NCBI GenBank assembly: GCA_017999835.1
Contig: JAGNLA010000004.1
Coordinates: 62,001 to 126,000, forward strand
Source: Caldisericia bacterium
GTDB lineage: Bacteria; Caldisericota; Caldisericia; JAAYUI01
Length of the DNA stretch: 64,000 nt
Direction of reading: 5' to 3'
The notes beneath the pieces are model-generated. The model did no database searches, was not told the origin of the DNA, and worked only from the letters and a program-made list of their open reading frames with translations. The translations under genes were made by a program, and so were the position numbers. Shown one piece after another: positions 8,290 through 25,963 of this stretch; positions within the stretch are counted from its first letter, which is position 1; every line of letters starts with the position of its first letter.

Positions 8290-9011
8290 GCCTTGAGTGT
8301 ATCAAGGATGAGTTTTATCGCCTCTGGTTCAAGCGGTGTCTTGCAATCAAAATGTTCGATATGGGTTTTTAAGTCAGAGGCCAGCATAACACTGACAGAT
8401 GGTTCAGAAATTCTGAGTATTGTGTTGGGGTTTGTGAATACAACAATCGGCTCAACCCACAGATTGTTCGGATCAAAACCATTTTTCTCAAGGAGTTTGT
8501 CCAACATCTGTTTAAGTTCCCATACTGATCGTTTTATCTGTCGGGCAGGGTTGCCAATGTGACCTTTATAGAAACCACCAGCTCTTCCACGCTTGAGGTA
8601 GCCCCAGGTGTCACCCTGGCCATAAATTTCACCGTTATAGTGCTTGCTTTCGATGGCAAAAACACATCTTGGCCCAACCAAAACATGATCAATGTCGCAA
8701 TTTTTCTCTGGCAATGAAACGTTGTTTATCATAATGTACTCATCAGGCAAAACCTCGAGCATCCTCGGAAGAATGGCCTGGCCAGCATGGCCAGATTTCC
8801 AGATCGCCACCTCTCCGGATCTGTTGACAAATATCATTGCTCCAAACATAAAAAGAATCACTGCCACCATCAACAGATAGTAGTTATTTAGCGTGAAGCA
8901 GAACGCTATCGACGCCAACGAGCATATTAAAAGGAATGATGCAAAAACAATCTTGAAGGTTTCGGTAAGAATTCTCTTCCTTACATAATCTTTCTTGTTT
9001 ATCACTAACAT
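8286..9011 (-). CDS. Membrane-anchored NERD domain nuclease-like protein
   Basis: The 241-residue protein begins with two predicted transmembrane segments (about residues 18-42 and 44-65). A NERD domain follows (about 80-190) with the motif DIDHVLVGP...FAIESKHYNGEI, supplying the D, E and K expected of the restriction-endonuclease-like active site. NERD proteins are associated with nucleic-acid processing, but their substrates are poorly known. ATG at 9011 overlaps the rnhB stop by seven bases (ATGTTAG), and the stop overlaps yraN as ATGA. The gene is thus locked between two other nuclease-fold genes in the operon. Confidence 0.85.
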   Translation of the reverse strand: MLVINKKDYVRKRILTETFKIVFASFLLICSLASIAFCFTLNNYYLLMVAVILFMFGAMIFVNRSGEVAIWKSGHAGQAILPRMLEVLPDEYIMINNVSLPEKNCDIDHVLVGPRCVFAIESKHYNGEIYGQGDTWGYLKRGRAGGFYKGHIGNPARQIKRSVWELKQMLDKLLEKNGFDPNNLWVEPIVVFTNPNTILRISEPSVSVMLASDLKTHIEHFDCKTPLEPEAIKLILDTLKA

Positions 9012-9553
9012 AATCTGAAACTCCTGCGATGAATCCTGCTTGGTCCAAGCTTTCTTAGAACATCATAATGAGCCTTGGTGCCATACCCCTTGTGAATATC
9101 GAAACCATATTCCGGAATGGTTTTTCCGTATCCTTCCATTATATGATCTCTGACAACTTTGGCAACAATTGAGGCTGCCATTATCTGAACAACACTCTCA
9201 TCGCCATTGACAATTGCCTCAGTTTCCCAAGGCATTCCTTTCGGCACTTTATTGCCATCAATCAATACTTTATCAATTTTACATTTTTTTGAAAGCGAAA
9301 AAGCCGCCCTCTTCATCGCATGCAAGGTTGACTGGAGAATGTTTATCCTGTCAATTTGAATGCTGGAACCTATGGCAATCGAAGTGATTGACGATTGCAC
9401 AATCTTTTTTGCCAGTTTATCCCTTTGTAACGGTGTGAGTTTCTTCGAGTCGTTGAGCCCGTCTATGTTTCCAAGCAAGACGCAAGCGCACACTACAACC
9501 GGCCCAGCAAGCGATCCCCTGCCGGCTTCGTCAACGCCTACAACCTCACCTAT
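9005..9553 (-). CDS. rnhB: Ribonuclease HII with apparent ATA start
   Basis: RNase HII cleaves the RNA strand of RNA-DNA hybrids and excises misincorporated ribonucleotides. The frame encodes the family signature VGVDEAGRGSLAGPVV with catalytic Asp8/Glu9, then NDSKKLTPLQRDKL, LIDGNKVP, AASIVAKVVRDHIMEGY and the terminal HKGYGTKAHY. The first ATG/GTG/TTG in frame is a GTG at 9493, downstream of the DEAGRG motif, and starting there would delete two catalytic residues. Upstream in this frame there is no ATG, GTG or TTG. The best placed codon is ATA at 9553-9551, overlapping the lepB1 stop as ATAG and giving a normal 182-residue protein (M-G-E-V-V-G-V-D-E). GGTGG lies upstream at 9557-9561. Identity is near certain; the start is inferred. 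Confidence 0.85.
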   Translation of the reverse strand: MGEVVGVDEAGRGSLAGPVVVCACVLLGNIDGLNDSKKLTPLQRDKLAKKIVQSSITSIAIGSSIQIDRINILQSTLHAMKRAAFSLSKKCKIDKVLIDGNKVPKGMPWETEAIVNGDESVVQIMAASIVAKVVRDHIMEGYGKTIPEYGFDIHKGYGTKAHYDVLRKLGPSRIHRRSFRLC

Positions 9554-24562: not shown

Positions 24563-24591
24563 GAGATAACCTATTTAATTCTCTCGGTCAA
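24563..24591 (-). promoter_or_regulatory. Promoter of the methyltransferase gene
   Basis: Minus strand: TTGACC (24586-24591), 17-bp spacer, TATCTC (24563-24568), then nine bases to ATG 24553, with no ribosome-binding site. The -35 lies inside the 3' end of the radical SAM gene. Confidence 0.45.
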
Positions 24592-25376
24592 CTGCCTGTA
24601 TGGAAATAGAATTCTTCAAGATTTAAACCAATCTTTTTCGAAGTCTCGAAAGCTTCGAGTTTTGCCTGCTCCCAATAGTATGGATCCTTTGCTTTTTTCT
24701 TTAATGATTCGAAATTAGACCCAGCCCTGGCTATGCTCGACGACAAACCTTTCAGGGTGCTGCTGTAAAGGTTGATTGCCTCAACTGAGAAACTGTCTAC
24801 AGTTCCACAAAATTTCTCAAGTATAGCCTCAAGGTTTGTTATGCCTGGCAGAAATGGCGACACAAACAGCCACGTTTTTGCGCCTGCCTCTTTCATCAAT
24901 TTCAGCGTCTTTGCCCGTTCTTCAATACTAGCTGTTCCGACCTCAAAACATTCCCTGATCCTGTCGTCATGGTAGGAGGCTGACATGCCAAACGTGAACG
25001 ACTTGAATGATGGCACAAGATCAGCGTCCCTTGCTGCAAGCGACGATTTTGTCAGCACCGATACATGGCATCCGCACTCAGCCAAAATTCTCAGGCACCC
25101 ACGAGTGATGCCAAATTCTTTTTCTACTGGTTGATAGCAATCGGTTACTGACGAGAAAAGAATCTTTTTACCAAAAGCTTTTTTAGACTCGCCTTGCAGC
25201 ACATCTGGCAGGTTTATTTTAGGTTCAACAAAGCAACCCCACTGGTGTTCGGATTTGTGGAATTTGAGCATGAACCTTGCATAGCAGAAAGAACAAGCGT
25301 GAGTACAACCAAAATAAGGATTGACAACATAATCAAAACCGCCTATCCCACTCTTTTGTAGAGCGGATTTTGCTAT
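24588..25376 (-). CDS. Radical SAM protein (SPL/Rv2578c-like) with apparent ATA start
   Basis: The frame contains DYVVNPYFGCTHACSFCYAR, whose CX3CX2C binds the radical SAM [4Fe-4S] cluster. The body follows the family pattern of spore-photoproduct-lyase-like proteins (VLTKSSLAARDADL, FGMSASYHDDRI, FVSPFLPGITNLEAIL). The first ATG in frame (25271) lies after the cysteines and would remove the cluster. No ATG, GTG or TTG exists between the upstream in-frame stop and the motif. ATA at 25376-25374 overlaps the TAG of the preceding gene as ATAG and gives the usual N-terminus (AKSALQKSGIGGFDYVVNPY), 262 residues in all. The reaction is unknown. Identity is strong; the start is inferred. Confidence 0.8.
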   Translation of the reverse strand: MAKSALQKSGIGGFDYVVNPYFGCTHACSFCYARFMLKFHKSEHQWGCFVEPKINLPDVLQGESKKAFGKKILFSSVTDCYQPVEKEFGITRGCLRILAECGCHVSVLTKSSLAARDADLVPSFKSFTFGMSASYHDDRIRECFEVGTASIEERAKTLKLMKEAGAKTWLFVSPFLPGITNLEAILEKFCGTVDSFSVEAINLYSSTLKGLSSSIARAGSNFESLKKKAKDPYYWEQAKLEAFETSKKIGLNLEEFYFHTGS

Positions 25377-25963
25377 TCTGGCATTGATTTCGATCGAATC
25401 ACTCTTTCCCTGACCTTGGCAGCTGCATCTGGAAACTTTTCATACTTGACTGTTTTCCAGGTGCAAGCAACGAATAGAATCAACATTCCTGCAAAAATCG
25501 AAAGGTTGACGTAGTCATCAAACTTGAGCCACACGACATAAGCACAAATCAGTGTCAGCAGGCCTGTTGCAATGGCAGCCATCATCCAGAGAGCCTTTGG
25601 ATACATGTGGAATTCAAACGCTCTTGCCATAAGCACTTTAGCGCCATTAAGGGCTTGCTCGAATGATATGTTTTCAGGCAACGTGTACTCAAAAGTTGTT
25701 TCATCAAAGCTCCCGCCCAGGTTGCTGATATACTTGTTTATAACATCGGGTATCTTTGACGGTCTCTTTTTTTCCTTGATCTGCCCAATAATGTTTGTTG
25801 TATAGACCGGTTTGTCAGCTGTCCCCATCTGATCTTTAAGTCTTTCAACAAGGAGCTTTGTTGTGTCTTTTGCCCACTTGTTTACTTTGCCATGGTCGGC
25901 ATCCCTGATAGCCAACTCGCCCTTGTATGCAAGCGTTAAATACTCTGCAACGTCTTGTCTCAT
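25373..25963 (-). CDS. Membrane protein of unknown function
   Basis: The 196-residue protein has a charged N-terminal region of about 125 residues (rich in Lys, no signal peptide). Two transmembrane segments follow (about 123-142 ALWMMAAIATGLLTLICAYV and 150-168 LSIFAGMLILFVA), then a short basic tail. No family was recognised. Its stop TAG overlaps the putative ATA start of the radical SAM gene, so the two are coupled. TATCAT lies six bases before ATG 25963, predicting a leaderless mRNA. Confidence 0.65.
   Translation of the reverse strand: MRQDVAEYLTLAYKGELAIRDADHGKVNKWAKDTTKLLVERLKDQMGTADKPVYTTNIIGQIKEKKRPSKIPDVINKYISNLGGSFDETTFEYTLPENISFEQALNGAKVLMARAFEFHMYPKALWMMAAIATGLLTLICAYVVWLKFDDYVNLSIFAGMLILFVACTWKTVKYEKFPDAAAKVRERVIRSKSMPE

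Follow-up and report, generated by a model that had tools for sequence, protein, structure and literature searches.

The window analysed here, a stretch of 64,000 nucleotides (G000:C8:62001-126000) from a Caldisericia genome of 1.89 Mb in 28 contigs (G000), carries on its reverse strand a gene for a SplB-like radical SAM protein, which we presume to correspond to COG1533, and an upstream gene whose end overlaps it. The positions of both genes and of the features at their junction are summarized in Table 1. Both the CX3CX2C motif and the Radical_SAM domain of the SplB-like class are present (38.3 bits against a Pfam gathering cut-off of 29.5), and no NCBIfam model passes, the scores for TIGR04470, NF033668 and NF038135 all being well under their cut-offs. 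The closest named homologues come from Caldisericales/Caldisericia metagenome assemblies (L031-L034). The comparison set within the family consists of this genome and four relatives (G001-G004) that sit in a second genus, whose radical SAM proteins are about 46% identical to the one studied here. The upstream gene adjoins the radical SAM gene in all five family genomes. Searches with it against Pfam and NCBIfam gave no match, and beyond the five genomes a single marginal match of 55 residues was obtained and no outgroup was found.

Table 1. Features of the radical SAM locus, and of the rnhB locus in the same window.
Feature	Position	Strand	Remarks
RNase HII gene (rnhB)	9005..9553	-	PF01351, E 3.3e-37
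ATAG at the start region of rnhB	9553-9550	-	overlap with a signal peptidase gene (Peptidase_S26)
ATA within this ATAG	9553-9551	-	only near-cognate codon close to the rnhB domain
Radical SAM gene, SplB-like	24588..25394	-	proposed ATC start to stop, 268 codons; PF04055
Radical SAM frame, stop to stop	24588..25439	-	283 codons
First in-frame ATG of the radical SAM frame	25271-25269	-	downstream of CX3CX2C
CX3CX2C iron-sulphur cluster motif	25307-25284	-	CTHACSFC
Upstream gene	25373..25963	-	196 aa; hydrophobic stretches by eye
ATAG	25376-25373	-	upstream TAG (25375-25373) sharing bases with in-frame ATA; judged incidental
ATC, proposed start codon	25394-25392	-	5/5 genomes; homologue Met position; Shine-Dalgarno-like pairing
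CGA, a rare Arg codon, in the upstream gene	25396-25394	-	its A is the first base of ATC; possible TGA relic
Shine-Dalgarno-like stretch CAGGGAAAGAGTGATT	25397..25412	-	duplex dG -8.0; inside upstream gene
In-frame TGA, upstream bound of the radical SAM frame	25442-25440	-

The original prediction for this locus stated that the cluster motif precedes the first in-frame ATG, that no ATG, GTG or TTG occurs back to the previous in-frame stop, and that an in-frame ATA overlaps the TAG of the upstream gene as ATAG. All three observations are correct, and the second extends to the whole family: none of the five genomes has any of these codons between the preceding in-frame stop and the cluster motif. 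A product from the first ATG would miss the cluster cysteines, which is too late for a working enzyme; hence, the true start must lie upstream, and since no ATG, GTG or TTG is found there, initiation has to use a non-canonical codon (or some exotic route). Comparison of the five genomes indicates that the lack of a usable conventional start, as originally proposed, is real and conserved and exceeds what chance would give.

A lack of this kind could also reflect an assembly error, viz. an indel hiding a normal start, or a dead gene. A comparable error is seen elsewhere in the same assembly, where a small conserved gene (G000:C13:9042-9386, reverse strand) shows an apparent frameshift at a run of seven T directly after a terminator-like hairpin, which is likely an assembly or sequencing slip. 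However, five separate assemblies agree on the absent start, and the region in question is under purifying selection. In the first 41 codons (numbered from the proposed ATC), all of which precede the first ATG, the six pairs among the four relatives sum to 37 synonymous and 0 nonsynonymous codon differences, and in codons 42-255 the same pairs sum to 287 and 121, respectively. These 41 codons behave strictly as protein-coding sequence, and we consider an artefact or a dead gene extremely improbable.

The pattern of variation also locates the point at which one reading frame gives way to the other. Within the second genus, 7 sites vary over the 36 nt preceding the ATC, down to -3, and 6 of them occupy third codon positions in the upstream gene. 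Codons 1-41 hold 12 variable sites, beginning 17 nt after the A of the ATC, and every one is a third position in the radical SAM frame. Somewhere between nt -3 and +17 of the ATC, constraint is handed over from the upstream gene to the radical SAM gene; the interval is too wide to tell codon 1 apart from codons 2 to 6.

Among exotic routes, slippage of ribosomes into the -1 frame as they reach the end of the upstream gene would yield a fusion of the two proteins. The radical SAM frame is indeed -1 relative to the upstream gene and is open through the overlap, and the relatives have A-AAA-TAG, at which the Lys tRNA in the P site could slip back by one base. Here the corresponding sequence is CCA GAA TAG, however; the overlap contains no heptamer of the form X XXY YYZ, the slippery site is not conserved, and in the stretch immediately preceding the stop, which would go unread after a late slip, conservation follows the radical SAM frame (I-x-I-x-A-R). 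A fusion by frameshifting is very unlikely on these grounds.

The aligned opening of the radical SAM frame reads ATC-GAA-ATC-AAT-GCC-AGA-ATA in this genome and ATC-AAA-ATA-GAG-GCC-AGR-CTT in the four relatives. The first ATC is the sole near-cognate codon common to all five sequences, although the four relatives are closely akin and represent, together with this genome, about two independent lineages, and the same ATC is also dictated by the Arg-Ser codons of the upstream gene. The ATA at 25376, which the original prediction took as the start, aligns with CTT in all four relatives. It lies six codons inside the conserved N-terminus, the I-x-I-x-A-R upstream of it being common to the other genus. 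The relatives also have an ATAG, but at codon 3 (ATC in this genome), four alignment codons away, where it arises from the opening ATC-AAA-ATA-G (formally M-K-I).

Homologues from outside the family provide a further indication of where the protein begins. In an alignment anchored on the KSxLxKS motif and comprising 35 extra-family loci with the same N-terminal type, a canonical start is found at the codon aligned with the ATC in 13 loci and one codon upstream in 14 (27/35 together), and at neither place in the remaining 8. Three of these eight (L006, L007 and L010) have ATT, ATT and CTG, respectively, at the aligned codon, with no canonical in-frame codon within 40 codons upstream of it. The earlier expectation that the ATA gives the usual family N-terminus is not upheld by this alignment, most homologues beginning six or seven codons further upstream.

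Two of the three loci just mentioned, L006 (genome G052) and L007 (genome G050), belong to another family of the phylum, and their radical SAM homologues have no canonical start before position -5 and an aligned ATT; third-position bias is seen only downstream, in small numbers, and no Shine-Dalgarno sequence is apparent by eye. Another radical SAM homologue (L018, G019:C1:454671-455329) looks broken: its sequence is split in two, the second part contains a stop, and the cluster motif has another residue in place of its middle cysteine (GCTHGGRYC).

Pairing with the 16S rRNA was compared for the candidate codons as duplex dG, computed with an assumed standard 16S tail, which may differ from that of this genome; on this scale the median is -6.4 for 102 genes of this genome with clear starts and -2.9 for random sites. 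The ATC at 25394 is preceded by a gapped pairing that 4.2% of random sites equal or beat, and in the four relatives the value at the ATC is -10.6. The pairing in this genome has suitable spacing but is not exceptional. For the ATA at 25376 the value is -0.5, with no Shine-Dalgarno match, and 88% of random sites do as well. On the combined evidence of the five-genome alignment, the homologues and the pairing, we consider that the radical SAM gene probably starts at the AUC at 25394.

The third codon (25388; AUC here and the AUA of ATAG in the relatives) is by spacing a near-equal candidate, with an acceptable Shine-Dalgarno distance and dG values of -6.9 in this genome and -8.7 in the relatives. 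Against it stands the count given above of homologous loci whose start matches the first aligned codon or its predecessor; at six and seven codons ahead of the KS of the motif, canonical codons occur in only 1 and 2 loci, respectively. We regard initiation at the third codon as unlikely.

The reading originally put forward, in which ribosomes terminating on the upstream gene restart at the ATA of ATAG in parallel with ATGA, called for a wider survey, since it treats the motif as a used start-stop overlap of the lineage. 4-nt junctions in the -1 frame between coding-scored frames were collected from 1.08 Mb of this genome (~57%) and 0.92 Mb of G001, yielding 185 and 158 junctions, respectively. 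A junction was termed start-less when the next canonical start lay at least 12 codons on and none was present upstream in frame. Seven start-less junctions were found in the sample of this genome (ATAG 4, CTGA 2 and TTAA 1) and two in that of G001 (ATAG 1 and TTAA 1), the radical SAM gene being the only ATAG case in G001 at a gap of at least 12 codons. Among the NTAG junctions of this genome, 4 of 9 ATAG were start-less compared with 0 of 13 others (P = 0.017). The enrichment that had been anticipated is thus present in the ~57% of the genome covered, but on inspection of the individual cases only rnhB stands.

The four start-less ATAG cases of this genome are the radical SAM gene, a cpYpsA-family gene, a fragment on contig C16 that looks like the remains of a repeat protein, and rnhB. 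In the cpYpsA-family gene (PF12694; L284, G000:C26:18848-19318, reverse strand), the first canonical start lies about 32 codons downstream and the opening ATC-AAA-ATA-G overlaps the end of the gene before it. An ATC two codons upstream of the ATA is available instead; a strong Shine-Dalgarno sequence, GGAGGTG, stands 6 nt ahead of this ATC and, likewise measured from GGAGG, 12 nt ahead of the ATA. Only rnhB among the four leaves ATA as its sole candidate. This second ATAG case in the window is real as described: rnhB lacks an ATG, GTG or TTG ahead of its catalytic motif. In G001, rnhB has no ATAG junction, and GTG and TTG candidates are present; initiation at ATA is possible for rnhB in one genome. 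AUA starts are also reported for infC, ccpN and citZ in Staphylococcus aureus (PMC13009471), and we found no literature on ATAG as a start overlap in the one open library that was searched.

The presence of ATAG in all five genomes (at another aligned position in the four relatives), its share of the start-less junctions and the case of rnhB speak for a restart at the ATA, but the CTT in the relatives, the missing Shine-Dalgarno sequence, the position inside the conserved N-terminus and the alternative start of the cpYpsA-family gene speak against it, and for the radical SAM gene we consider it improbable. As a general device parallel to ATGA, ATAG is left with rnhB only. For the radical SAM gene the ATAG is probably incidental and results from the place at which the upstream gene happens to meet its new stop.

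Other screens for start-less genes were also carried out. An ortholog screen gave 552 reciprocal best pairs, of which 302 remained after overlapping shadows were removed and 261 with at least 80 bits were scored; as it is limited to genes with an orthologue in both samples, it undercounts. Twenty rows exceeded the listing threshold, most of which were read by eye as overlap or antisense shadows or as Shine-Dalgarno regions. One row is the C13 gene with the apparent frameshift at seven T described above, one in this genome (C15:104-1273) lies at a contig edge, and one in G001 (on C20) is presumably a prfB-like gene with its known frameshift. In 92 of 491 same-strand pairs here and in 47 of 351 in G001, the first canonical start follows only after a long gap; reading by eye showed an ordinary ATG, GTG or TTG at the end of most of these. 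The G001 gene that we take to be coaD was rejected as a start-less gene, an ATG being present upstream within the overlap. A coding-score test for late starts proved too insensitive, the target gene itself having a deficit near zero, and was dropped in favour of homology. A search of solved structures gave two weak matches only, both to designed repeat proteins.

Non-canonical starts are suggested for two further genes of the family. In all five genomes (L287-L291 in G000-G004), the gene for a SCIFF-type peptide precedes that for its radical SAM maturase and overlaps it; the peptide is over the cut-off for PF13165, and the maturase is TIGR03974-like (387 bits against a cut-off of 425). The maturase has no nearby ATG, GTG or TTG at its start in any of the five genomes and a conserved CTG with a Shine-Dalgarno sequence. 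An ATT/ATC start was considered and rejected, as the CTG 18 nt upstream pairs better in all five (-8.9/-10.3 vs. -3.1/-3.8), so that a CUG start appears more likely; in this genome, far-upstream in-frame GTG and ATG codons are also present. The infC gene has ATC at its start region in G000, G001, G002 and G004 (in G000 with GGAGG 5 nt upstream), and ATT or ATC is found there in most of the other relatives read. infC appears to use AUC initiation in the same genomes, and ordinary IF3 behaviour is therefore likely; the sample of this genome contains IF3 and one tRNA with anticodon CAT. It is conceivable that the family tolerates near-cognate starts unusually well (viz. AUC in the radical SAM and cpYpsA-family genes, AUA at ATAG in rnhB, CUG or AUU/AUC in the SCIFF maturase, and infC) and that one mutation destroying an ATGA overlap can create a new one, although we hold this broader view to be rather doubtful.

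Under the preferred reading, translation of the radical SAM gene would start at the AUC at 25394, which falls among the final codons of the upstream gene; the Shine-Dalgarno-like sequence within that gene would place the ribosome there, and ribosomes finishing the upstream gene would probably help by translational coupling. The initiator tRNA would read AUC inefficiently, and the enzyme would be scarce; we infer both the use of AUC and a low, IF3-sensitive output.

The codon of the upstream gene that runs into the ATC suggests how this arrangement may have originated. CGA accounts for 6.8% of Arg codons in this genome and 1.9% in G001 and is found at the junction in all five genomes. In the radical SAM frame, three relatives have ACG as the codon preceding the ATC, the fourth has GCG and this genome TCG; at this place 14 of the extra-family loci have their canonical start. 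A former ATGA overlap may have become ACGA by one T-to-C change, by which the upstream stop TGA would have turned into CGA and the radical SAM start ATG into ACG; the upstream gene would then have run on to the next stop, and initiation would have shifted to the next codon, ATC. The tail that the upstream gene would have gained differs between the genera (RSK in the relatives and RSKSMPE here), with the ATC lying 7 nt and 19 nt, respectively, upstream of its stop. Such a change would explain the conservation of a rare CGA at the junction, and we regard this origin as plausible.

The proposed start resembles known systems in several respects. It shares with infC, the gene for IF3, a near-cognate AUH start (AUU, AUC or AUA in infC, where IF3 autoregulates it) with a Shine-Dalgarno sequence; however, infC encodes the discriminating factor itself, and no feedback role is suggested for the radical SAM gene. 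A low, IF3-sensitive output is described as a known consequence of such starts (PMC5472188). Non-canonical starts besides infC (AUA) are reported in S. aureus for cvfC1 (AUU), ccpN (AUA) and citZ (AUA); extended Shine-Dalgarno pairing close to the start accompanies them, two are conserved, and in poor medium the three that were tested gave about 10% of the output of AUG (PMC13009471). Those starts rest on ribosome profiling and reporters, whereas the radical SAM AUC rests on comparative sequence and lies inside an upstream gene. In Streptomyces, sigR is reported to have a GTC start that is repressed by IF3 and whose regulatory role was shown by mutation (PMC5472188); sigR is likewise a functional gene with a non-canonical start that gene finders misannotate, but its codon is GTC. 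The ATGA termination-reinitiation overlaps described in PMC6728339 also involve co-directed overlapping genes in the -1 frame; in contrast, the start proposed here is not AUG and lies upstream of the stop at the distances given above.

These results bear on how genes of this family are read. In every family genome, gene finders restricted to ATG, GTG and TTG would either overlook the enzyme or truncate it to the part beyond its cluster motif, and a conspicuous overlap motif need not be a start. The locus would add a conserved AUC start other than that of infC from outside the model organisms, and it points to a route by which a single mutation may let a stop/start overlap decay to a non-canonical start, one that could be searched for elsewhere as a rare CGA with a start-less gene after it.
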